From positions 8,606,001 through 8,670,000 of the forward strand of contig NZ_CP017641.1 of assembly GCF_001983935.1 (NCBI RefSeq): a stretch of 64,000 nucleotides of DNA. Direction: 5' to 3'. The notes beneath the pieces are model-generated. The model saw nothing but the letters and a program-made list of their open reading frames with translations, made no database searches and was not told the DNA's origin. The stretch is from Fuerstiella marisgermanici. Its GTDB lineage: Bacteria; Planctomycetota; Planctomycetia; Planctomycetales; Planctomycetaceae. Of this stretch, positions 3,863 through 28,536 are shown one piece after another. The translations under genes and the position numbers were made by a program. Positions within the stretch are counted from its first letter, which is position 1, and the number at the start of each line of letters is the position of its first letter.

Positions 3863-4097
3863 CGGAATTTGTCGCTATGATAAATAGTGGTAGAGCCGTG
3901 CAGCTCTCGGATTTTTCAGGATATTCGGCCGGTTTGGTAAGTCGATCAGCCTGCCAGTTTATCGGACGAGACCTCCGAACCGCGGAGAATTCTCGTCAGC
4001 AGCACGGTACAGTATCGACGGCAGGTCGCTGCGGAAAGCCCCAACCTTCTCGGTTTCTTGAATTCTCGCACAGTTTTATAGCGCCCCGGCACCATAC

Positions 4098-5530: not shown

Positions 5531-7459
5531 ATGGAACTTTCGCTGTTCAAACGCGAACTGATCGAACTCGCTCAGCGAAAGCGGACGTACGGGCTGCGGT
5601 GCCTTGTCTGGCTTGTGTTCCTGATCGTGTTTCTGATTGCTTACATCGATCTCACCACCTACGCCGCCAACATGTTGCAGATGCTGGGACGCGGCAACCA
5701 GATCACGGAAGCGTTGTTCATCACACTGATTCTGACGATCTATGTGTTGAACCCGATCATGGCGTGCACAGCCATTACGTCGGAAAAAGAAAAGCAAACG
5801 CTGGGCCTGTTGATCGTTTCCAAGCTGACTCCCACGTCCATTGTGGTGGAGAAGATTGCGTCGCGAATGTTACCGCTGGTGTCGCTGCTGCTGGTGTCGG
5901 CTCCCTTGTTTGCGGTCGCTTACCTGTTTGGCGGTGTCACGTTCACTCACACATTGGTCGGCCTGTTCATTTTGTTCTCAACAATTCTGCAGGTGACGAC
6001 CATCGCCGTGTTTTGTTCGGCTTTGTTTGAATCCGGCATCGCCGCGTTTTGGGGTACGTATCTGCTGCTGGGGCTACTGTATTTTACGTTGCCAATGATG
6101 CGAGAGTTTCATTTGATTCGGATCGACTTTGGAAGTCTGCCCGATGAAGAATTCATGTTCTTCCCGATCTACCAACTCGCGATATTGATGAACACGGGGC
6201 AAAGTTACAGCGACATCTTGTTACTGACGCTTCCCAATTTTATTGTCACGATAGTGTTTGCCTTTGCCGCTCGCTGGGCAGTTGTGAAGTTCAGTTTCGG
6301 AAGCGCGTTTGCGTTTGCGAAACAGGCAAACGTGGTCAGAAAGGAAGTCGCCCACTGGTTGCGGCAGCTGTGGGAAAATCGACCTCGGTCGCTGACGATC
6401 GTGTGGCCCAATCAGCCGATGCCGGAAGTGGAAGCAGCGAAGCCGGTCGCATCTCCTGCTTCGCTTCAGCCGGATCCACGTATGGAATCACGGTGCGAAG
6501 ATTCTGCCCGGCAGGCTCATGAAACGACGCTGCAGCAATCATGGCTGTTGCAGCGAGGACGGCCGATTGCCTGGCGAGAACTACGGGGCAAGCTGGTCAG
6601 CAGTCGAATGCTTCAGGTTTCCTGCTTGGCCGGACTGTTGTTGTTCGAACTATCGTGGATGGCCAACCAGCAGCATGACACAGAAGAAATTTCGGCCGTC
6701 GTTTCGATCGGACTGCTGATCGTCGCCGTGCTGCTTGTGCTTGGTTTCAGTTGCCGATTGTTCGCGACAGAACGAGAACGGCAGACGCTTGATTCGCTGC
6801 TGGTTGCTCCGCTGACGAACACTGAATTGCTGCGGCAAAAGTTGGCGGGAGTCAATCGACTGATCGTGTTGCTGCTCGTCCCGCTGTTCGTGCTCGGCGT
6901 GATCAACATGCTCAACGCCGATATCGATTATGGCTATCCCGAATGGACAATCGGCGGCGTCACTGGACGTGGGGCTCTAAGAAATCGAACTCGGTTGATC
7001 CCAGGCCAGTTTGTGTGGTTCTGGCACGGATGCCTGTTTCTGACGTGCATTGTCGGTTCCGCGTTTATCTACCTGAACCTGGCGAAGTGGATTGCCATTT
7101 ACTGGGGCTTGAAACTGAACACACAGATGAAAGCACTTCTGGCCAGCGTGCTCTGCGTGATCGCTCTATGCCTTGTCCCGATGATGACATGCCTGGGATA
7201 CCTGTTTTGGACAGATGCCGATCCGGACAGCACGCCGCTTTTTTTCTTCAGTAGCCCCGCAATTATTGTGTGCATGAATGAGATCCATGAACTCTACTAC
7301 GTCTACCGTCGAGGTTCGTTTCCGCCTTCTGACTGGCTGGTCGTGCTGACGAATTTTGCAATCTACGGCAGTCTTGCCCTGGCGCTTCGAACTGTCCTGT
7401 TGCGGCGTTTACCGAAACTGCTGAACCGTCCGGAACACGCTACGAAAGCGTTGACGTAG
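5531..7459 (+). CDS. ABC-2 type transporter permease, double length
   Basis: A 642-residue protein with about 12 predicted membrane segments in two halves. Each half repeats the ABC-2 permease order: an N-terminal amphipathic block (FKRELIELAQRKRTYGLR and, near residue 345, GRPIAWRELRGKLVSSRML), then 'ITSEKEKQTLGLLIVSKLTP' and 'FATERERQTLDSLLVAPLT', the intracellular coupling motif that precedes the next helices. The halves are joined by a hydrophilic linker (about 285-340). The matching ATPase is not adjacent; the gene lies 24 bases after plsC. Substrate unknown; planctomycete homologues are often annotated only as ABC transporter permease. Confidence 0.8.
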   Translation: MELSLFKRELIELAQRKRTYGLRCLVWLVFLIVFLIAYIDLTTYAANMLQMLGRGNQITEALFITLILTIYVLNPIMACTAITSEKEKQTLGLLIVSKLTPTSIVVEKIASRMLPLVSLLLVSAPLFAVAYLFGGVTFTHTLVGLFILFSTILQVTTIAVFCSALFESGIAAFWGTYLLLGLLYFTLPMMREFHLIRIDFGSLPDEEFMFFPIYQLAILMNTGQSYSDILLLTLPNFIVTIVFAFAARWAVVKFSFGSAFAFAKQANVVRKEVAHWLRQLWENRPRSLTIVWPNQPMPEVEAAKPVASPASLQPDPRMESRCEDSARQAHETTLQQSWLLQRGRPIAWRELRGKLVSSRMLQVSCLAGLLLFELSWMANQQHDTEEISAVVSIGLLIVAVLLVLGFSCRLFATERERQTLDSLLVAPLTNTELLRQKLAGVNRLIVLLLVPLFVLGVINMLNADIDYGYPEWTIGGVTGRGALRNRTRLIPGQFVWFWHGCLFLTCIVGSAFIYLNLAKWIAIYWGLKLNTQMKALLASVLCVIALCLVPMMTCLGYLFWTDADPDSTPLFFFSSPAIIVCMNEIHELYYVYRRGSFPPSDWLVVLTNFAIYGSLALALRTVLLRRLPKLLNRPEHATKALT

Positions 7460-7629
7460 CTCAACGCGATACGCACCGCAGTCTGACTTCTGAATTCCAA
7501 CTATTGCAGATTTCATTCTGTTGGCTGTCATGACGCGCGGCAATTCGCCAGAATTCGTTCTGTTGACACCCTCCTTAATCCTACCTTGACCCTCCGCGTT
7601 CTTACGTCCAGCCTGTCAGGAATCTTCTC

Positions 7630-8796
7630 ATGCCACTTTGTAGTTTACTTCGCACGTTCGCCGCTGCCATCGTTTGCCTGGCCGGCACCGCGTCGCTTAC
7701 CGTCGCCCAGGACAGGCCGCCTCAGGGCGTGGCACCGGGGGTTGAGAAGCCCTTGCGCATTTCTCCGCGACCGGGCAACGGCCGCAACAGTGAAGGCGAT
7801 TTCATTCAGCTGAAGGATGGTCGCCTGATGCTGATTTACACGAAGTTTATCGGCAAAGGTGATCATGCTCCTGCCGACCTCGCGGCTCGGTATTCTTCTG
7901 ATGGCGGGAAAACGTGGACGACAGATGACGTTGAAGTGTTGGCTCGCGAAGAAGGTGAAGCGAATCTGATGTCGGTCTCGCTGCTGCGACTGCAGGACGA
8001 CCGCATCGCGCTGTTCTACATAATGAAGTACCCCAATCCGGCTGGCGTTGGATACGAATATCTGGACCACCTGCTGATGCGCACAAGCACGGATGAAGGC
8101 AAGACATGGTCCAGCCCGGTTTATATGACTCCAAAGGATGAGCCCGCGTATCGCGTTTTGAACAACGACCGAGTGATCCAGCTAAAGAGCGGTCGATTGG
8201 TCGTGCCCGTGGCAACTCATTACCTGCCCGGCTGGAAGACGATGCGTCCTTCCGCTCAGATCCACTGCTACCTGTCGGACGACGCCGGGGAAACCTGGCG
8301 AGCCAGCCGCAGCACTCTGGAATCAGAATTGTTGGTGCAGGAACCAGGTGTGGTGGAGCTTAAGGACGGGCGCCTCATGATGTTCTGCCGCAGCCGCGAT
8401 TGCGAGGTTGTTACGTATTCTGAAGACGGCGGTGAGACGTGGTCAAAGTTAAAGAAATCCAATATCCCTCAACCCACTCCGTCTCCGGCAACCATCGAAC
8501 GCATTCCATCAACGGGAGACCTGCTGTTGGTGTGGAACAACGGTGACGATCCAGCGGCCAAAGCGAAACCCATCGGCCGTCGCCCGTTCACTGCGGCCAT
8601 TTCCAGCGACGATGGAGCCACGTGGAAGCATGTCAAAAATATCGGCACGGATCCGGATGGCTGGTACTGCTACACAGCGATGCAATTTGCCGGTGATCAC
8701 GTCGTGCTGGGGCACTGCGAGTACCCGCGTCTGAACTCACTGCAGATCACTCGCTTCCCAGTGAAGTGGCTGTACGAAGCAGCGAAGGAAGATTGA
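7630..8796 (+). CDS. Exported BNR-repeat sialidase-family protein
   Basis: A 388-residue protein with a signal peptide (MPLCSLLRTFAAAIVCLAGT, cleavage after VAQ). It is a six-bladed-propeller sialidase fold: five Asp-boxes are visible (SSDGGKTW, STDEGKTW, SDDAGETW, SEDGGETW, SSDDGATW) at roughly even spacing. Catalytic-type Arg and Glu residues occur (for example EGDFIQLKDGRLMLIYTKF at the first blade, and PGVVELKDGRLMMFCRS), but whether the full sialidase triad is intact needs a structural alignment. Such proteins are numerous in planctomycetes and probably act on algal or host glycans. Expressed alone. Confidence 0.85.
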   Translation: MPLCSLLRTFAAAIVCLAGTASLTVAQDRPPQGVAPGVEKPLRISPRPGNGRNSEGDFIQLKDGRLMLIYTKFIGKGDHAPADLAARYSSDGGKTWTTDDVEVLAREEGEANLMSVSLLRLQDDRIALFYIMKYPNPAGVGYEYLDHLLMRTSTDEGKTWSSPVYMTPKDEPAYRVLNNDRVIQLKSGRLVVPVATHYLPGWKTMRPSAQIHCYLSDDAGETWRASRSTLESELLVQEPGVVELKDGRLMMFCRSRDCEVVTYSEDGGETWSKLKKSNIPQPTPSPATIERIPSTGDLLLVWNNGDDPAAKAKPIGRRPFTAAISSDDGATWKHVKNIGTDPDGWYCYTAMQFAGDHVVLGHCEYPRLNSLQITRFPVKWLYEAAKED

Positions 8797-9221
8797 CGGA
8801 TCCGGATCCCCGAATCGTAGGTCAGGCTCCTGCCTGACTTCGCTGCTTGGTTGTATGTCGCGGCGGAAGCCTACTCTGGCAGGATACTGCGGCATTGCGT
8901 TCGTTTGCGATTGACCAGAACGGGGCCGAAGCACGTAGCCGTGGGTGGCAGCCCACCGAGAACGCAGCCCGGAGGGCGAAACAAGAATTGCCGGTGGCGT
9001 GAGCCACCGAGTGAGTGAGAGCGAGTGCCATAGCCTGGAGGGCGACGCATGCCTGGACTTGCTGTCGATTGTGTCGCCCTCCGGGCTTGCTGAGCAGGGT
9101 TCCTTTATCCGGTGGCTGACGCCACCGGCAGGTCCTGTACCGCCCTCCGGGCTCTGAACGGCATTCCCCTTTGGAACGAACATTGCGAGAAAGTAGACAC
9201 GTGCCCCCCTCCAAAACAAAA
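8797..9221. repeat. Palindromic REP-like intergenic repeat cluster
   Basis: A gene-free 425-base stretch made of inverted repeats. Seen directly: a palindrome GTCAGGC...GCCTGAC at about 8821-8840, with a related copy near 9521-9540; a 14-bp perfect inverted pair at 8966-8979 and 9074-9087 (AGCCCGGAGGGCGA and its complement); and a pair of 18-base near-palindromes with core GGTGGC..GCCACC near 8991-9008 and 9112-9128. No reading frame there is credible. It looks like a dispersed REP/MITE-like element; transcripts would fold into long hairpins. Confidence 0.6.
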
Positions 9222-20650: not shown

Positions 20651-21172
20651 TGATCGTGCGGCGTCTGCGCGTAATTAGACTGGCATCGAACAACCCCCGT
20701 GGCTGGAGTCCAATATTAAAGCCAGATTCGATTCCTGCTGGCGTCGCCGCAGGTTGAGTGCCCCGCGGATGACAGAATCTCTTGAGCAGCAAATGATGCT
20801 TACAGCGAATTTCGCTGACTTGTGGCCGCGGAACAAGCGTGTCGGACGATGAAGGATGTTCTCCACGAACCCAAACCGGCCACAATAAAAGGTAAAGTGG
20901 TCTCGTGGCTCACCGATGACTGGAACTGACTTTCGCGCGGTCTGGCTGACGGCACATCAGCTGTCTGGTAACGGGCGGCCTAAAATCGTTCACCTTTTCG
21001 GTGACGCAGCGACTAAGATGAGGTTGCACAAGACGCCCCAGTTACCATTTTGTTCTGATGGTATTTAAGGGCGAGTTTTAGATTGAGACGTATGGGGAGA
21101 TCCATGGCTATAACTTCTCCTGGTCCGTTGGCCTGCCGTCCCTCTTCTGGCCTCGTCCCTGAGATTCGTATT
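20651..21172. other. Gene-free stretch
   Basis: About 520 bases between the PLP enzyme and the ankyrin cluster. A minus-strand frame at 20634-20885 (83 codons) is Arg/Ser/Pro-rich, lacks a signal and lies over the 3' end of the neighbouring gene in antisense, so it is not called. Nothing else recognisable. The promoter of the ankyrin operon should lie near 21040-21150. Confidence 0.35.
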
Positions 21173-22126
21173 ATGTGTTGCCAACGCATCGTTTCAATGC
21201 TGCTAACGACGGCCATGTTTTGCCTGTTCGGCTGCAATAAAGGTGGATTTGTTCTGTCCCCAACGGCACCGAAAAGCTGGCATACAAAGATGGGTTGGAA
21301 GGCGACCGAGTACTTTGACGATCCGCAGGTGGTTGCCTTGTGTGAGGCGATTGAGAAGAACGACATTCAAGAGATCGACCGTCTCATTGCCGCAGGTGCC
21401 GACGTGAACGCCAAAGGCAAAGGCAACATGACTCCACTGTTGTGGGCGTTTCCCGATAACCAAATCAAGCGATTCAAACACTTGCTCAAACGCGGTGCAA
21501 ATCCGAATGTCATATTCGAATCCGATTTCGGCGTCCCCAGCGGCTTCCACGCCGGTGATTCCGTCACGCACATGTCTGCCGGCACCGCGTTTCCCGGCTA
21601 CTTTGAAGCCGTCATGGAACATGGTGGCGATCCGGAATTGATAGACGAAAAGACCGGGAACTCACTACTGTTTGAGGTGATCTCGTCAGGTGTTGGAGAT
21701 ACTAAACACCGAGTGAGGATTTTGATCGAAAAGGGAGCAGACCTGAATAGAAAGTCTTTCGGAGGAGTTACGCCTTCGATGGCGGCGGTGACACGGTTTG
21801 CGCAGTTCGACATCGCGCTGCTGCTGCTAAAGGCGGGCGCTGATTCCGATGTGTATCAGGATCGGTCGAACCAACAACTGATCCATCACGTCGACAGAAT
21901 TGAAGAGAAGCTAAAGCTCCTGTCTCCGGAGCAGCGGAAATCGTACCGAGAGTTAGTGAAATGGATGAAGGAGCATGGAAAGGACTTTGCGAAGGCCCGG
22001 CGTGATCGCGAGCGCTGGCGAGAATGGGGGAGTGGATCGATCGCCGACTATCGGAAGAAAATTGATCAGGAGATTGCCGAACGAATCGCGAAAGAAAAGG
22101 CGGATGCAGAGAATGACGCTGATTAA
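21173..22126 (+). CDS. Ankyrin-repeat lipoprotein, copy 1
   Basis: A 317-residue lipoprotein. The start at 21173 (MCCQRIVSMLLTTAMFCLFG-C) was chosen because it gives a short basic n-region, a hydrophobic core and a lipobox; in-frame codons upstream from 21083 are polar. The conserved block WHTKMGWKATEYFDDPQVVAL is shared by all three copies. Ankyrin repeats follow: IEKNDIQEIDRLIAAGADVNA, TPLLWAF, FKHLLKRGANPNV, FEAVMEHGGDPEL, RILIEKGADLNR and FDIALLLLKAGADSDV. A charged helical tail (residues about 250-317) ends the protein. Overlaps copy 2 by 14 bases. Likely a periplasmic/outer-membrane anchored interaction protein. Confidence 0.75.
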   Translation: MCCQRIVSMLLTTAMFCLFGCNKGGFVLSPTAPKSWHTKMGWKATEYFDDPQVVALCEAIEKNDIQEIDRLIAAGADVNAKGKGNMTPLLWAFPDNQIKRFKHLLKRGANPNVIFESDFGVPSGFHAGDSVTHMSAGTAFPGYFEAVMEHGGDPELIDEKTGNSLLFEVISSGVGDTKHRVRILIEKGADLNRKSFGGVTPSMAAVTRFAQFDIALLLLKAGADSDVYQDRSNQQLIHHVDRIEEKLKLLSPEQRKSYRELVKWMKEHGKDFAKARRDRERWREWGSGSIADYRKKIDQEIAERIAKEKADAENDAD

Positions 22127-23198
22127 CAAACCCTGGCTCGACGGCGCACGAAGCCGTTTCGCATTCGCTATTCATGTGATGTTTGCCTACAGATTAGCGC
22201 TTTGCATTCTGGCATTGAATCTTTCCTTGAGTTCGATTGGATGTTCAAAGCCACCGATTGCATCGATTTCTGCTGAAGCCACCAACTGGCATGCGAAATT
22301 CGGATGGAAGGCGACCGATTACTTTGACGATCCGCAAGTGATTGCCTTGTGTGAAGCGATTGAGGAGAACGACATTGCAGAGATCGACCGTCTTATCGGA
22401 GCAGGTGCCGACGTGAACGCGAAAGGGAAAGGCAACATGACACCGTTGTTGTGGGCGTTTCCCGACAACAAACTCAAACGTTTTGTAAGTCTGCTGGAAC
22501 ACGGGGCTGACCCGAATGTGGTGACTAAATCCGAATTCGGCGTCCGCAGCGCGTTTCATGTTGGTGATTCAGTCACCCACATGGCCTCTCGCAGCGCATT
22601 CCCGAAGCACTTTGAAGCCGTGATGAAACACGGTGGTGATCCCCAATTGTTCGACACAGGGAAAGGGGATACGCTGCTACACGCCGTGATCACGTCTCGC
22701 GCACCCCACAAGATTAAGAAGGAACGAATACAACTGCTGATCGAGAAAGGTGCCGACTTGAATGCGGTGGATGCCAGTGGAAACCCTCCGGTCACAGATG
22801 CAGTCGCGTGGTTTGGCCAATTCGATATTGCCTCGCAACTGCTCAAAGCTGGTGCGGACTACGGCATTTACCAGTCTGGGTCCAATTCTAAACTCGTCCA
22901 CATTGTCGAACGGGCAGGTCTGAATCTGCACCTTATGGGTGACGATCAAAGACAGGATTTCAAGGAGTTGGAAGCGTGGCTCAAAAATGCCGGTGAGGAT
23001 CTTGAGGCCGCTCAAGTGGACAATGCAAGATGGAGCAAGTGGGGACGGACTCTGCCACCCAAAGAGATTCGACGTCGAAGGGAACTGGAAGTCGCTGAAC
23101 GTAAAGCCCGCGAGGCTGCTGACCCGAAATTAAACGAGCCGTGTACCGGTGATCCTGAAACAGATACCGCCAAGCAGAATTCACAAGCCCGTGACTAA
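22113..23198 (+). CDS. Ankyrin-repeat lipoprotein, copy 2
   Basis: A 361-residue lipoprotein overlapping copy 1 by 14 bases, so coupled. A second candidate start lies at 22179 (MFAYRLALCILALNLSLSSI). The lipobox is SSIGC. Same order of blocks as copy 1, with MTPLLWAFPDNKLKRFVSLLE and RIQLLIEKGADLNAVDASG; the C-terminal tail (DQRQDFKELEAWLKNAGEDL, then Arg/Glu-rich) is longer. Nucleotide identity with copy 3 is very high at 22329-22478 (runs of 49 and 66 identical bases). Confidence 0.75.
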   Translation: MTLINKPWLDGARSRFAFAIHVMFAYRLALCILALNLSLSSIGCSKPPIASISAEATNWHAKFGWKATDYFDDPQVIALCEAIEENDIAEIDRLIGAGADVNAKGKGNMTPLLWAFPDNKLKRFVSLLEHGADPNVVTKSEFGVRSAFHVGDSVTHMASRSAFPKHFEAVMKHGGDPQLFDTGKGDTLLHAVITSRAPHKIKKERIQLLIEKGADLNAVDASGNPPVTDAVAWFGQFDIASQLLKAGADYGIYQSGSNSKLVHIVERAGLNLHLMGDDQRQDFKELEAWLKNAGEDLEAAQVDNARWSKWGRTLPPKEIRRRRELEVAERKAREAADPKLNEPCTGDPETDTAKQNSQARD

Positions 23199-24189
23199 TT
23201 CCCAATCCGTGACTATGTTTTTAGCGCTTTATGTCTTTTGCTGCCTGGCTGGCTGCGAGAAGAACGAATTGGCACTGATTCAATCAGAACAATACTGCTG
23301 GCATGAAAAAGTAGGCTGGAAGGCCAGTGACTACTTCGAAGATCCGCAAGTGATTGCCTTGTGTGAAGCGATTGAGGAGAACGACATTGCGGAGATCGAC
23401 CGTCTTATCGAAGCAGGTGCCGACGTGAACGCGAAAGGGAAAGGCAACATGACACCGTTGTTGTGGGCGTTTCCCGATAACCAAATTAAGCGGTTCAAGC
23501 ATTTGATCAAACGCGGTGCAAATCCGAATGTCATATTCGAATCCGATTTCGGCGTCCCCAGCGGATTCCACGCCGGCGATTCCGTCACGCACATGTCCGC
23601 AAGGACGCAGTTCCCCGGTTACCTCGAAGCCGTCATGGAATCTGGAGGCGACCCCAATCTGATCGACCAACGACGGAACCGAACACTGTTGCATGCCGTA
23701 ATTACCGCCGGAGTCCCTGATGTCAAACAGAGAGTCCAAATCCTTATTGACAACGGTGCCGACCTGAACGCCTTGGACTCCAGTGGTCACCCTCCAGTCC
23801 GAATGGCTGTTATGTGGTTTCGGCAGTTCGATGTCGCCCTGAAACTTTTGAAAGCGGGGGCAACCCCCTCAATCTATCGCCCTCGATCCAACTCAAAACT
23901 CGTTCACGCCGTTGAATCGGCAGGCCAGGAGGTCGAGACGATGAGCGACAGTCAACGCAAAAGTTTCATAGCCTTGGAAGCCTGGCTAAGGGAAGCCGGT
24001 GAGGATCTAAAGGCTGCTCGGATGGATAATGCGAGATGGAGCGAGTGGATTAGAACACTTGCACCGAGTGAATACCGGAAGCGGATCGATCGGGAAGTCG
24101 CGGAACGCATGGCCCGAGAAAAAGCTGCCGTGAAGTCGGAAGAGCCTGTCGGTAGTACTCCCGAGGCGGATGCCGCCGAACAGGAATGA
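23149..24189 (+). CDS. Ankyrin-repeat lipoprotein, copy 3 (mosaic)
   Basis: A 346-residue lipoprotein starting at 23149, overlapping the end of copy 2 by 50 bases; a second start lies at 23215 (MFLALYVFCCLAGC) but that would lack the basic n-region. Lipobox LAGC. The sequence is a mosaic: 23340-23470 is nearly identical to copy 2, the central segment 23472-23600 (KRFKHLIKRGANPNVIFESD) is nearly identical to copy 1 (53 identical bases), and the rest (SNSKLVHAVE, EAWLREAGEDL) is like copy 2 again. This indicates gene conversion within the tandem cluster. The gene is followed by the interrupted locus at 24300. Confidence 0.75.
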   Translation: MILKQIPPSRIHKPVTNSQSVTMFLALYVFCCLAGCEKNELALIQSEQYCWHEKVGWKASDYFEDPQVIALCEAIEENDIAEIDRLIEAGADVNAKGKGNMTPLLWAFPDNQIKRFKHLIKRGANPNVIFESDFGVPSGFHAGDSVTHMSARTQFPGYLEAVMESGGDPNLIDQRRNRTLLHAVITAGVPDVKQRVQILIDNGADLNALDSSGHPPVRMAVMWFRQFDVALKLLKAGATPSIYRPRSNSKLVHAVESAGQEVETMSDSQRKSFIALEAWLREAGEDLKAARMDNARWSEWIRTLAPSEYRKRIDREVAERMAREKAAVKSEEPVGSTPEADAAEQE

Positions 24190-24476: not shown

Positions 24477-24501
24477 TGAGGTGGTACAGGTTTCAGGGAC
24501 A
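24477..24501 (+). repeat. IS3 terminal inverted repeat, left
   Basis: 25 bases starting TGAGGTGG, exact inverted copy of 28362-28386. Preceded by the GGA target duplication. Confidence 0.85.
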
Positions 24502-24511
24502 GGTCATTCTC

Positions 24512-24591
24512 TTATTTTGGGAGATTGATGATCTGTTCGAACTGAGCTGGCGACCTGTAATCGAGGCTGGAGTGTCTGCGTTCGTGAACGT
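24512..24591 (-). pseudogene. IS3 orfB, C-terminal fragment
   Basis: Minus-strand reading from the element junction gives (V)HERRHSSLDYRSPAQFEQ and then IINLPK with a TAA at 24512-24514. ERRHSSLxYxSPAQFE is the canonical C-terminal motif of IS3 OrfB (rve_3 region). It joins the N-terminal fragment at 27221 across one GT: ...KYVRYYN + VHERRHSSL..., in frame with no base lost. Confidence 0.9.
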
Positions 24592-24605
24592 ACAACCTCA
24601 CGAAC
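24580..24605. other. attL junction of the serine-recombinase element
   Basis: The left junction of the inserted element. The core dinucleotide GT is at 24590-24591: bases to its left belong to the IS (attB half), bases to the right to the element (attP half). An 8-bp inverted repeat GTTCGTGA (24580-24587) / TCACGAAC (24598-24605) brackets it, lying 2 bases from the core on the attB side and 6 bases on the attP side; such different spacing between attB and attP half-sites is a feature of large serine integrases. Confidence 0.75.
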
Positions 24606-24966
24606 CGATACCCATGTTACCGAGGCAGTAGTTCGGTATCGATGGCACCCTTGGTTTGATCAGCCCGTCACGATTGATCGAGCGATCGTACGTCGTGATC
24701 GCGGAGCTGTCTATTTGTGTCGTCCTGCCGACGTGACGGACGGAAAGTTTCGTGAAGTTCCGCAGTGGATGTTGAATCAGTCTGTATGCTGCGTCATGCA
24801 GCTACGCGACGAACCCTGCGTTTCAATATCAGCACTATTGAATCTTTCAGCACTGCTGCGGGACGCCACAGCGGGCGATGAGTTTCTGATAGATGTTCAG
24901 CATTTCCAATCTTCTCAGGGAGATGCTGATGCCACAACCCAGAACGAAACCGACAACACAGCTTGA
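24592..24966 (+). CDS. Element ORF1, start-less in integrated form
   Basis: Frame open from the left element end: TTSRTDTHVTEAVVRYRWHP, WFDQPVTIDRAIVRRDRG, CRPADVTDGKFREVPQWML, and so on to TGA at 24964-24966 (124 residues). There is no ATG, GTG or TTG before the TTG at 24715, which would delete the conserved RYRWHPWF..VTIDRA block. Joining the right end of the element (27209-27220: ATG AAA CAC AGT) to 24592 in the circular form gives an intact 128-residue protein starting MKHSTTSRTD, with an AAAGGTG Shine-Dalgarno 6 bases before the ATG. It overlaps ORF2 in another frame. I recall similar RYRWHP proteins next to recombinase genes in planctomycetes; function unknown. Confidence 0.8.
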   Translation, partial: TTSRTDTHVTEAVVRYRWHPWFDQPVTIDRAIVRRDRGAVYLCRPADVTDGKFREVPQWMLNQSVCCVMQLRDEPCVSISALLNLSALLRDATAGDEFLIDVQHFQSSQGDADATTQNETDNTA

Positions 24967-25108
24967 TCTGTTTGAAGTGAGTCCGCCCCGGCCGCGATGG
25001 AGTGATCTGCCCAGCGAGACTCGGGAAGAAGCGACCCGATATCTGGCGGAACTCGTTCGTCATCATGCTGAAAATCTCAACAGCGGAAAGGAGTCCGAAG
25101 ATGAGTGA
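24929..25108 (+). CDS. Element ORF2, small QLDLFE protein
   Basis: 59 residues, start ATG 24929 supported by AGGGAG 6 bases upstream (24917-24922); the ATG at 24923 would be too close. Sequence begins MPQPRTKPTTQLDLFEVSPP, then RWSDLPSETREEATRYLAEL, with a charged tail. The frame overlaps the recombinase start by 8 bases. The PTTQLDLF and SDLP..R...RYLAELVR pattern is a small helical protein that, from memory, regularly precedes such recombinases. Possible accessory factor or regulator; function unknown. Confidence 0.75.
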   Translation: MPQPRTKPTTQLDLFEVSPPRPRWSDLPSETREEATRYLAELVRHHAENLNSGKESEDE

Positions 25109-27185
25109 AAAGATTGAAGCCATCCATCTTCAGCGGAAAGCCGTTCTTTACATTCGTCAGTCGTCGCCGTTTCAGGTGCTTCACAACGAAGAAAGCCGCA
25201 GGCTGCAGTATGCCATGCAGCAACGGATGCGTTCACTGGGATGGAAAGACATTGAAGTCATCGATGAAGATCTGGGGCGCAGCGCGTCCGGCAGCGTTGT
25301 TCGATCGGGATTTGAACGCATGGTCGCCGATGTGTGCCTCGGGAAGATCGGGGCCGTTGCTGCACGAGAGGTGTCGCGGTTTGCTCGCAACAGTCGTGAA
25401 TGGCAGCAACTGGTTGAAGTGTGTCGAGTCGTGGACACGTTATTGATCGATCAGGAAACGGTCTACGCTCCTCGCCGGAGCAATGACCGACTGTTGCTGG
25501 GACTGAAAGGAAGTTTGAACGAATACGAGCTGGACCTCCTTCGTCAGCGATCCGTAGAAGCTCGGCGTGAAAAGGCGCGCCGAGGAGAACTGATCATTTC
25601 GGCACCGGTCGGATATCTGAAAACGGGAACGACTCGAGGCAAAGATCAGCGCATTGAGAAAGACCCGAATACTCGCGTGCAACAGATGATCAATCTGGTG
25701 TTTCGCAAGTGCTTCGAACTGGGGAGTGCACGGCAAGCTTTGATGTGGCTTCTGGAAGAAGATCTGCAGATGCCGACACGAGACAAAGCCGGAGTCCTGA
25801 AGTGGAAGCGTCCGACATACGGGATGGTGTACCAGATCCTGACTCATCCGGTGTACGGTGGGGCGTATGCGTATGGCCGAACCGAACATCAGCCATCGTA
25901 TGAAGGTGGATTCGTTGATTCAAAAACACGGCGGCGCAGTCGCGAAGAATGGATCGCATTGATTCCCGAACATCACGAAGGCTATGTATCGTGGGAGGAG
26001 TTCGAACGATTGCAGGATTTGATTTCGTCAAACAATCTGCGTTCCGGGCGAGGCGCTGCTCGAAAAGGTTCGGCACTGTTGTCGGGAATGCTGGGCTGTC
26101 AGCAATGTGGACGGCGACTGGCCGTCGCGTACAGCGGAGTCGGAGCGAAAGTGCCACGTTACTGCTGCCACCGAGGGTATCTGGACAATGGCGAAGCCAA
26201 GTGCATCGCATTCGGTGCCACGTCCGTTGACATCGCCGTTGCAGAACAGATATTCCGTGTTGTTGCTCCTGCCGCTCAAGAGGCCGCCATGCTCGCTCAC
26301 CAGAAAACAACCGAACGTGACAACGAAATCCTTCAGGCACTGGAAGGGGAACTTAAGTCTGCTCGTTATGAAGCATCGCGTGCACAACGTCAATTCGATG
26401 CAGCTGACCCGGAAAATCGACTTGTCACCGAGGAACTGGAACGAAGATGGAATGCGTCGATGCAACACGTCAGCGACGTCGAAGCACGGATCGATCAGCA
26501 GCGAAATGACAGATCTTCAATCGACGATCCTGATTTGCAGGGTCTGATGGCAGTCGTGGCTGACCTTGACGCAGTCTGGAACAATCCTGATGCTGACATT
26601 CGAATCAAGAAACGCATCGTTCGGACTCTGATCCGCGATATCGTTGCGGATGTCGACAACGACGTGAGCGAAGTCATTCTTACAATCCACTGGGTTGGTG
26701 GTGTGCATACCGAACTGCGACTTCCCCGCCGTCGTCGCGGAAAATCGACAGCCACGACAGCCACGTCAGCAGAGGCCGTCGATGCTGTCCGGTCACTCGC
26801 ACGAATCTGTTCCGACGATCTCATCGCCGGACTGCTCAACCGCAACGGGTTACCAACGGGACGAGGAAACCGGTGGACTCGAGAGCGGGTCACATCGATG
26901 CGGAACTACCACAAGATTGCCCGCTGGACTGCACAGGCTCAATCTGATCAAGGCTGGATGAACCTAACCGACAGCGCAAAACATCTTGGCATCAGCACGC
27001 GGACACTCAGACTGGCGATTGAACGAGCCGATATCAAAGGTCAACACCCGCTTCCGGACGGACCGTGGATCATCAATCGCAGCGAACTGGAGACGCCAGC
27101 GGCAAAGGCCGTTGTCCGGAAGGCAAAAACTCGAAACCGCAACCCCGCGGTACCAGATCCCAAACAGCAATCCCTTGAGTTTTAA
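25101..27185 (+). CDS. Large serine recombinase
   Basis: A 694-residue protein. Start ATG 25101 with AAGGAG about 9 bases upstream. Domains: resolvase catalytic domain (about 10-150) with YIRQSS, Ser21 as likely nucleophile, and AREVSRFARNSREW with the conserved Arg pair; recombinase domain (about 160-300, PVGYLKTGTTRGKDQRIE); zinc ribbon with Cys333/Cys336 (CQQC) and a following CC..C; long coiled coil (about 395-455); and, after Arg-rich PRRRRGK, a C-terminal winged-helix, excisionase-like domain (about 618-670, GWMNLTDSAKHLGISTRT, then LPDGPWIINRSELE). It integrates or excises the element between attP and attB via a GT core. C-terminal wHTH fusion is unusual. Confidence 0.9.
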   Translation: MSEKIEAIHLQRKAVLYIRQSSPFQVLHNEESRRLQYAMQQRMRSLGWKDIEVIDEDLGRSASGSVVRSGFERMVADVCLGKIGAVAAREVSRFARNSREWQQLVEVCRVVDTLLIDQETVYAPRRSNDRLLLGLKGSLNEYELDLLRQRSVEARREKARRGELIISAPVGYLKTGTTRGKDQRIEKDPNTRVQQMINLVFRKCFELGSARQALMWLLEEDLQMPTRDKAGVLKWKRPTYGMVYQILTHPVYGGAYAYGRTEHQPSYEGGFVDSKTRRRSREEWIALIPEHHEGYVSWEEFERLQDLISSNNLRSGRGAARKGSALLSGMLGCQQCGRRLAVAYSGVGAKVPRYCCHRGYLDNGEAKCIAFGATSVDIAVAEQIFRVVAPAAQEAAMLAHQKTTERDNEILQALEGELKSARYEASRAQRQFDAADPENRLVTEELERRWNASMQHVSDVEARIDQQRNDRSSIDDPDLQGLMAVVADLDAVWNNPDADIRIKKRIVRTLIRDIVADVDNDVSEVILTIHWVGGVHTELRLPRRRRGKSTATTATSAEAVDAVRSLARICSDDLIAGLLNRNGLPTGRGNRWTRERVTSMRNYHKIARWTAQAQSDQGWMNLTDSAKHLGISTRTLRLAIERADIKGQHPLPDGPWIINRSELETPAAKAVVRKAKTRNRNPAVPDPKQQSLEF

Positions 27186-27202
27186 CTCAAATAGAACAAA
27201 GG

Positions 27203-27236
27203 TGCATAATGAAACACAGTTGTAGTAGCGGACGTA
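27203..27236. other. attR junction and relocated ORF1 start
   Basis: Right junction of the element with core GT at 27219-27220. Left of it is element sequence containing AAAGGTG (27198-27204) and ATG at 27209-27211; right of it is orfB, whose codons TAC TAC AAC resume. In the integrated state this ATG reads only into antisense IS sequence (MKHSCSSGRI...). Confidence 0.75.
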
Positions 27237-27968
27237 TTTTGACATCTCTCTTCTTGCCTCTGCCTTGCTTTGGTAATCGGTCATTTCGAGTTCGTTCTTG
27301 ATCGTTCCGAAGCAGCTTTCCATGGATGCGTTGTCATAACAGTTGTCAGCACGGCTCATGCTTTGTGTGATTGCTGCCCGACGAAGAATTGATCGGTATT
27401 CATTGCCAGCGTACTGGCCGCCTCGATCCGTGTGGTGAATCAATCCAACGTCAGGCTGTCGTTCTTTGATGCTCGAACGCAGTGCTTTGAGGACCAGCTG
27501 TTCCGTCATGTTGTTATCCAGATGCCAACCAACGATCCGCCGGGAAAACAGATCCATCAGCATCGCCATGTAGCAAAACGTCCCGTCAGTCAGCGGGATG
27601 TAGGTAATGTCTCCAACCCAAATTTGATTGATCGTTGTTGGGGCGTCCGCATCGAGCAACAGGTTCGGCGAATAGCCCAGTCGATGACGGCTGTCTGTCG
27701 TTTTTGGAACGAACGACTTCGGCTGAATTGCCTTTAATTTAAGGGCTTTCATGACATTCGAGACCTTCCTGCGATCACAGGGAAGTCCCATTTCCTTGAG
27801 GTCTTCGGCAATGCGACGAGCCCCGTAGCGGCGGCGGTGACACTTAAAGATGACTCTTATCAACGGAGCCAGTTGAGCATCCTGTTCTTCAAAGATCGTG
27901 GGCTCAGCAGTCTGCCAGGCATAAAACGAAGTTCGGTTCACACCGAGATGACGACAGACTTCGGCCAC
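27221..27968 (-). pseudogene. IS3 orfB, N-terminal fragment
   Basis: DDE transposase with IWVGDITYIPL, HHTDRGGQYAG and ASMESCFGTIKNE giving all three acidic catalytic residues. The frame from GTG 27968 ends in its native part at KYVRYYN; the following 85 codons in the open frame (to 26964) are antisense of the recombinase and not IS sequence. The natural product is an OrfAB fusion made by -1 frameshifting from orfA. C-terminal 20 or so residues are at 24512-24591. Confidence 0.9.
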
Positions 27969-28018
27969 GTTTCCATGACCTTCCTGAACAATCGCTTCAA
28001 CGGCCGCATAGACGTCAG

Positions 28019-28321
28019 CTATTCGTTGCGGCCGAAAATAGCCAACGCTTTTTTTAGTATGTCCCTCTCACGTTCGACACGCCGCAGATCGGCTTCGAGG
28101 TCCTTGACCTTAGCCTCCAAAGAGCTTGCCACTGGACCACTTTGTTCCAGCTGCTCCTGTTTCCAGCGATACAAAACGTTGACGTTTGAAATGCCCAACC
28201 GGTCCACAACCTGAGGAGCCGTGTACCCATCCAGAAGCAGCTGCACGGCTTCTTCTTTGAACTCATCCGTGTACTGACGGCGAGACGATTTCTTGACTGA
28301 TGTTTTTTTCTTCCGAGACAT
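28019..28321 (-). CDS. IS3 orfA, helix-turn-helix transposase subunit
   Basis: 100 residues: basic N-terminus MSRKKKTSVKKSSRRQ, then the IS3 OrfA HTH (YTDEFKEEAVQLLLDGYTAP and GISNVNVLYRWKQEQ) and a leucine-zipper-like coiled coil (LEAKVKDLEADLRRVERERD) for OrfA-OrfAB dimerisation. It stops at TAG 28019 after the slippery A7. Intact. Confidence 0.9.
   Translation of the reverse strand: MSRKKKTSVKKSSRRQYTDEFKEEAVQLLLDGYTAPQVVDRLGISNVNVLYRWKQEQLEQSGPVASSLEAKVKDLEADLRRVERERDILKKALAIFGRNE
28049..28055 (-). promoter_or_regulatory. Programmed -1 frameshift site
   Basis: Minus-strand A7 in the orfA frame CTA AAA AAA GCG. Slipping by -1 continues as ERDILKKSVGYFRPQRIADV (minus-strand) into the orfB frame, which runs to AEVCRHLGV without a stop. 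A heptamer A AAA AAA is a classic IS3 frameshift signal. Confidence 0.8.
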
Positions 28322-28361
28322 CCTGAGGTCCTTTCTACGGACTCAGAATAAGAGATTCACG

Positions 28362-28386
28362 TGTCCCTGAAACCTGTACCACCTCA
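28362..28386 (-). repeat. IS3 terminal inverted repeat, right
   Basis: Exact inverted copy of 24477-24501, followed by GGA (28387-28389), the second copy of the target duplication. Confidence 0.85.
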
Positions 28387-28536
28387 GGATACTGGGCATC
28401 GAAGAAGAGTCGTCAGTAGTGAGAATGCTTGATGCCCTTGGAGAATTGTGGCTTGGGGTGTATGGCAACCCTTAGCGGCTGTTCGCTTTGATATTGCAGA
28501 CTATCAACTGGCCTTGATTAACCCAGAGTACCGAGC

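Follow-up and report, generated by a model that had tools for sequence, protein, structure and literature searches.

A putative start-codon switch at the attachment site of a serine-recombinase transposon family that interrupts IS3-type transposase genes

The 8.92-Mb single-contig genome of Fuerstiella marisgermanici carries a 2632-bp transposon encoding a large serine recombinase, found here in a stretch of 64,000 nucleotides (contig NZ_CP017641.1, positions 8,606,001 to 8,670,000; hereafter the window, to which coordinates refer unless another locus is named). The body of a small gene, ORF1, lies at the left end of this element, and its start codon and first codons lie at the right end. We consider it quite likely that this is a minimal large-serine-recombinase transposon with its attachment site, attP, in its first gene, and that joining the ends completes ORF1, the translation of which would feed that of the recombinase, ORF3. 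By sequence comparison, the claim of a start codon at the opposite end is confirmed to within one codon and holds family-wide, and a joining-dependent ORF1 switch is plausible. The features concerned are:

24590..27221 (equally 24593..27224, owing to the common GTA), plus strand: whole element, 2632 bp, delimited by eight empty copies of the host insertion sequence (IS) and seven copies with identical ends
24592..24966, plus strand: ORF1 body, startless when integrated, with a conserved Y.WHPW block at about 24637-24654
27209..27221, plus strand: ORF1 start and first codons, ATG AAA CAC AGT T.., with AAAGGTG upstream
25101..27185, plus strand: ORF3, large serine recombinase of 694 amino acids, with Resolvase (PF00239, 1.1e-18) and Recombinase (PF07508, 5.2e-19) matches

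The ORF1 frame is open between stops at 24529 and 24964, and its first ATG, GTG or TTG is the TTG at 24715, downstream of the WHPW block; the right-end ATG occupies 27209-27211. An earlier note on this DNA, made from the letters alone, had reported that ORF1 has no start before its conserved block and that AAAGGTG and ATG AAA CAC AGT stand at the opposite end, both of which are seen in the window. It had also joined 27220 to 24592 through a GT core, giving an ORF1 of 128 residues. The unbroken frame stands, but that join is 3 bp short, the eight empty IS copies showing GTA as the shared bases, and the protein has 129 residues (MKHSCTTSRTDTH..) through an extra codon, TGT, for Cys. The joined ends read ATGAAACACAGTTGTACAACC, i.e. 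MKHSCTTSRTDTHVTEAVVRYRWHPW.., so that ORF1 runs ATG AAA CAC AGT TGT ACA ACC.. in one frame. A join through GT was rejected: the attB that it implies occurs in none of the eight empty IS copies. The GT junction had no match in the same genome.

The ends could be placed this closely by comparing copies of the element and of the IS that it interrupts:

24590..24592, no strand: attL core GTA, exchange probably at the TA at 24591-24592, from end comparisons
27222..27224, no strand: attR core GTA, from end comparisons and empty IS copies
24477..24591, minus strand: left part of the interrupted IS3-type IS, the 3' end of orfB, ..YVHERRHSSLDYRSPAQFEQIINLPK
27222..28387, minus strand: right part of the IS, comprising orfA at 28019-28321 and orfB as far as the Tyr codon (rve, 6.1e-26)

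Ten genomic copies of the host IS were found with a 300-bp probe from the IS flank. The element occupies two of them, and the eight empty ones all read TTCGTGAAC-GTA-GTAGCGG; a domain scan found orfA to be HTH_Tnp_1-like (3.7e-09). Insertion is precise, as empty and occupied copies have only GTA in common, which is the pattern of large serine recombinase elements. ORF3 is present in this genome in seven copies at 99-100% identity, and all seven near-identical elements have the same ends (left ACAACCTCACG, right AAAGGTGCATAATGAAACACAGT then TGTA), with element starts of GTACAACC in six and ATACAACC in L003. In relatives, the base preceding TA at the left end varies (TTAT|ACAA in L030, L037, L038, L053 and L023, TTCT|ACAA in L062). 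Because of this variation, and because the arms of a Bradyrhizobium junction described below are symmetric about T^A, TA rather than GT is likely to be the exchange point. One copy, L007, has a left flank of the type seen in L006 and a right flank of the type seen in L003, and a recombinase paralogue of 33% identity lies elsewhere in the genome (L008, G000:C1:8078843-8080741).

Right ends were surveyed in 91 loci: the best 80 of 254 from an ORF3-alignment scan, six own-genome entries (the element sequence being identical in W and L001) and five plasmid loci. Those left out were the window copy (L002), another own-genome copy (L007), repeat entries of own-genome copies (L009, L013-L018), the paralogue L008, partial or distant loci (L010-L012) and loci with a broken recombinase frame or an IS21 (L019, L021, L026), of which L019 has the same ends by eye. 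The titles of the best 80 name Alpha-, Beta-, Gamma- and Deltaproteobacteria, Acidobacteria and Planctomycetes, with one labelled Actinobacteria. By tblastn, ORF1 matched 78 plasmid records, the alignment starting at its first residue in most of the 40 that were listed, and it occurred in 4 of 392 genomes of the phylum sample, its own included. At 88 of the 91 loci the right-end T[GC]TA is preceded, at a distance of exactly 12 or 9 nt, by a start codon in the ORF1 frame: 60 have ATG and five GTG at -12 (three of these five also having ATG at -9), and 23 have ATG at -9. The misses are L091, which stops at a contig end, L046, which is cut short, and L054 (ATGAAGCGTACTTGTG), where the start is present without TGTA. 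When right ends were located without requiring a start, 87 of 91 were found (the exceptions being L020, L075, L078 and L091). Among their 52 distinct sequences 48 carry ATG or GTG at -9 or -12, and the four without are L085 and L090, cut at an earlier T[GC]TA with an ATG further on, L054 and the truncated L046. Over the 14 off-frame positions from -1 to -20, by contrast, ATG occurred 8 times and GTG 27 times, 19 of the latter at -17. Judged by these counts, the placement of a start codon before the right end is not chance.

Such conservation could also be that of DNA bound by protein, the ATG stretch serving only as an attP arm for the recombinase and joined ORF1 giving no functional product. 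The joined ends in Bradyrhizobium are partly symmetric about T^A, many relatives conserve a TGGGYGTT near the ATG, and the family lacks an overall Shine-Dalgarno excess (see below), all of which would fit. However, the start moves by exactly one codon, between -12 and -9, from lineage to lineage with the frame kept, a constraint that DNA binding alone would not impose; lineages with ATG at -9 carry CTG, CCG, CAG or GTG at -12. In addition, the codons ahead of the block look coding in the ORF1 frame only, and the window keeps its ATG even though its arms are barely symmetric beyond ACAAC. We regard a role as binding arm alone as distinctly unlikely, and the same bases are likely used both as a binding arm and as a coding start.

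At the other end of the element, 53 of 70 loci have no ATG, GTG or TTG from the left end up to the Y.WHPW block, and none of the 70 has ATG there (20 of the 91 loci yielded no left end). Taken alone, the absence of starts and stops says little, since the shifted frames are free of starts in 41 and 66 of the 70 loci and free of stops in 64 and 41. We also estimated the ratio of nonsynonymous to synonymous differences (pN/pS), bootstrapped over codons, in the 42 loci without an in-element start, thinned to 30. Startless codons 1-16 gave 0.62 (0.40-0.94) in frame versus 1.39 and 1.07 off-frame, codons 9-16 gave 0.60 (0.33-0.96) and the ORF1 body 0.48; a wider set of 37 gave 0.60 in frame versus 1.32 and 1.10. 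By these ratios, the startless codons ahead of the block evolve as coding sequence, and in the ORF1 frame only.

If integrated copies translated ORF1 from an internal TTG or GTG, or from a start in the flank, the right-end start would add little. Such starts are available to part of the family: 17 of the 70 loci have one before the block (the first being TTG in 11 and GTG in six), several flanks offer one in frame, and the window has the TTG at 24715. Yet most loci have none in the left end, flanks vary from copy to copy, and the window lacks an in-frame start in both flank and left end, while initiation at 24715 would lose the invariant Y.WHP block. This explanation seems very unlikely to us. 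The earlier note had named ORF1 proteins beginning at or after this TTG as evidence against a split gene, and the conserved codons upstream of the TTG indicate that they do not begin there.

A natural joined junction was detected in Bradyrhizobium erythrophlei GAS478 (G417, the genome of L089 and L098), the real one of two genomes matched in a class-1 junction search of 29. There the ORF3 end is followed by ATGAAGCAGGATTGTACAACGAGG and then by an uninterrupted ORF1 (MKQDCTTRFENAHRTVRREVLYRHHPWFGRRV..), and the arms are symmetric about T^A, with AACGCCCA on both sides. The 12-kb region (L120) holds two head-to-tail elements flanked by transposase halves, ..LRTHRSLNKDAP.. on the left and ..HLRHVLLSYLKYYN on the right, possibly from different genes. 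In the first element, a single open ORF3 frame is present only from position 4018 of the region onward, and in the second ORF3 is interrupted by a different recombinase-like gene (ITGDHLARSAYVYVRQSSIDQLLHNPESRRRQY..) at 7017-9113 on the minus strand. With both recombinase frames broken, the junction is evidence for register, not for activity; a pair of this kind would be expected if a circle had inserted at the attR of another element. The earlier note had proposed looking for full-length ORF1 relatives in circles or tandem copies, and this pair provides one, intact across its junction. Its wider claim, that the att site lies inside a coding sequence whose start is at the other end, is upheld by the exact ends, the conservation, the coding selection and this junction. 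Other searches, of 15 genomes and of 394 genomes, gave no matches, and one of 391 genomes matched five, with ORF1 behind the junction in G417 alone. Other candidate junctions were rejected: L118 is the right end of L044 beside its flank, and L121, L123, L124 and L125 do not continue into ORF1.

The arrangement of the genes points to coupled translation, in which a further small frame takes part in the window:

24929..25108, plus strand: ORF2, small, overlapping the ORF1 end and the ORF3 start, with in-frame ATGs also at 24893 and 24923

ORF2 had no family match in domain and family library scans. The ORF1 stop overlaps the ORF3 start or sits within 6 nt of it at 61 of 71 loci, by a 4-nt overlap in 34, a 1-nt overlap in 23 and a gap of 2 or 6 nt in four. 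The ten exceptions are the six own-genome entries, where ORF2 bridges a gap of 134 nt, three loci with a truncated ORF1 (L056, L057, L064) and L020. In L020 (4998-7598, Cupriavidus sp. KK10), ORF1, the ORF2 region and ORF3 form one open frame of 867 codons. Because stop and start overlap or abut in most relatives, and ORF2 bridges them here, translation of ORF1 probably helps that of the recombinase. The ORF3 stop lies about 13-19 nt upstream of the right-end ORF1 start in most relatives, so that in the joined form one gene would lead into the next around a ring.

Within ORF3, a zinc-ribbon match is weak (PF13408, 4.4e-05, below cut-off), and a C-terminal helix-turn-helix (26958-27093, residues about 619-664) is weakly excisionase-like (HTH_17/PF12728, 0.0024, below cut-off; phrog_66, 0.002). 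One could speculate that this motif might allow excision without a partner protein.

The overlaps at 61 loci and the single frame of L020 would also suit an ORF1 that is chiefly a leader, in which translation across attP opens the recombinase start and the protein itself hardly matters. The protein, however, is conserved, with ten invariant columns in an alignment of 31 sequences and the low pN/pS of its body, and a structure model built from 27 sequences has a confidently folded core, and we judge the leader explanation unlikely. This model has a mean predicted local distance difference test score (pLDDT) of 77.5 and a predicted template modelling score of 0.54, with a small beta-rich core and a helix; residues 11-70 form the confident core (pLDDT block means of 87-95). 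A fold search of PDB returned no matches at E <= 0.001 and only weak tudor- or chromo-barrel-like ones. ORF1 had no Pfam or PHROGs match and one meaningless NCBIfam match (0.12), and the 31 family members gave only scattered single family matches. A possible kinship with DUF5372 or Y4bD/Y4pK was dropped, DUF5372 not being among the matches of the 31 members and a search of open-licence PMC papers for the Y4b/Y4p names giving nothing relevant. Since the complete protein would be confined to the joined form, it seems likelier to act on the integration side or in regulation than in excision. The earlier note had suggested roles in replication, maintenance or re-integration of the circle, which are conjectural. 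ORF1 is easily missed by gene finders: among eight plasmid records, whose gene table is incomplete, the ORF1 body had no listed gene in six (L019, L022-L026), L021 had a short call inside it and L020 had nothing listed in the stretch.

We favour a split ORF1 completed by joining. Recombination between the ends would set the right-end start codons before the left-end ORF1 body, with a free circle as the presumed usual joined form. ORF1 would be whole only in this state, and its translation would probably aid that of the recombinase, so that joining would raise recombinase output and integration would lower it by carrying the start away. Acting by the chemistry expected from its family, the recombinase would exchange strands at the TA within the Tyr-Asn codon pair of a DDE transposase gene, interrupting the IS.

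Several observations weigh against this reading. No circle was seen, and all genome searches together yielded one true junction, that of GAS478, in which the two elements brought together differ from each other and each has a recombinase frame that is interrupted or frame-shifted. The Fuerstiella genome itself holds no joined junction (one match with three mismatches is the right end of L005 beside its flank), and viral contigs gave no true junction, pattern 1 matching one unrelated contig and pattern 2 none. In 30 of the 52 distinct right ends an in-frame ATG is also present at -21, making the exact start ambiguous there. At the left end, codons 1-8 alone have a pN/pS of 0.66 with an interval of 0.30-1.26, in addition to the 17 loci with a start before the block. 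No usable promoter was found at the right end, where the one promoter-like match, against 0.5 expected by chance, overlaps the ATG, and the family shows no Shine-Dalgarno excess (mean -4.83 vs -5.08 kcal/mol when shuffled, in 64 distinct upstream stretches). Finally, ORF3 of the window has its own upstream AAGGAG and need not depend on ORF1.

We found that the target of these elements is narrow. In sequence read outward from the TA core along the minus strand, a strict motif of the type Y-N-x-x-R-x-H matches 58 of 66 left flanks versus 13 of 12530 TA sites of the same loci, and a looser one matches 62 of 66 versus 77 of 12503, both motifs having been written after the flanks were seen. On the other side, the interrupted gene has an integrase-core domain (rve or rve_3) in nine of ten loci scanned, the miss being L075. 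L062 is inserted in the opposite orientation, L039, L056 and L085 do not fit, L033 and L081 have the motif on the right side and no left end, and a second-side motif in L063 is a chance match. On the evidence of these flanks, insertion is directed to one Tyr-Asn codon pair of IS3-type DDE transposase genes and interrupts the gene. In large serine recombinases, a non-palindromic 2-bp core fixes orientation. The likely TA core here is palindromic, yet one orientation towards orfB dominates (62 of 66 by the loose motif, with L062 the one clear opposite). L044 and L048 have a transposase 3' half (YN..RP[HN]) on both sides, which suggests rearrangement between copies.

Comparable principles have been published. 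Joining of ends activates genes behind the junction through a circle-made promoter in Tn4451/Tn4453 (TnpX), ICEKp1, ICEclc and Tn916, according to passages of one paper (PMC13023037), which cites Lyras and Rood 2000, by its title, for a promoter for TnpX formed in the Tn4451 circle. There the junction gives a promoter, whereas here it would give the start codon and first codons of a protein. Archaeal SSV-type 'suicidal' integrases have the recombination site in the element's own gene, which is split on integration, and the consulted passages of a review call self-disrupting recombinases exclusively archaeal (PMC8371274); in those the tyrosine integrase gene itself is split, whereas here a small bacterial companion gene is split and the serine recombinase ORF3 stays whole. 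Mycobacteriophage BPs, as excerpts of PMC4557955 describe it, shows integration-dependent immunity with attP within a gene, the free and integrated forms yielding different products. Integration there alters the C-terminus of a repressor; here it would remove the N-terminus and start of ORF1. The multi-targeting large serine recombinases of Durrant et al. 2022 insert as one family into many different genes, with DUF4368 in 63% of the clade and a TT core in the example given, and its main text contains no mention of 'IS3' (PMC10083194). Our elements, in contrast, probably have a TA core and target one kind of gene, and DUF4368 is not among the nine Pfam matches of ORF3. The earlier note knew of no described element of this design and we likewise found none in searches of open-licence PMC papers, although the related principles above are published.

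Elsewhere in the window, three similar tandem proteins sharing stretches such as GADVNAKGKGNMTPLLWAFPDN lie just upstream of the IS, at 21083-24189; they may be ankyrin-like.

Whether these elements form a widespread, apparently undescribed family of transposons that prey on transposons, with attP as a start-codon switch and a joined-only translation ring quietened by integration, is in our view an evenly balanced question. The transposase codon pair would offer such a family a dispensable and mobile landing site, and the recombinase is directly testable with attP, attB and empty sites known. If this reading is true, the family would carry a switch, conserved across phyla, in which DNA rearrangement affects the start codon of a gene rather than a promoter.

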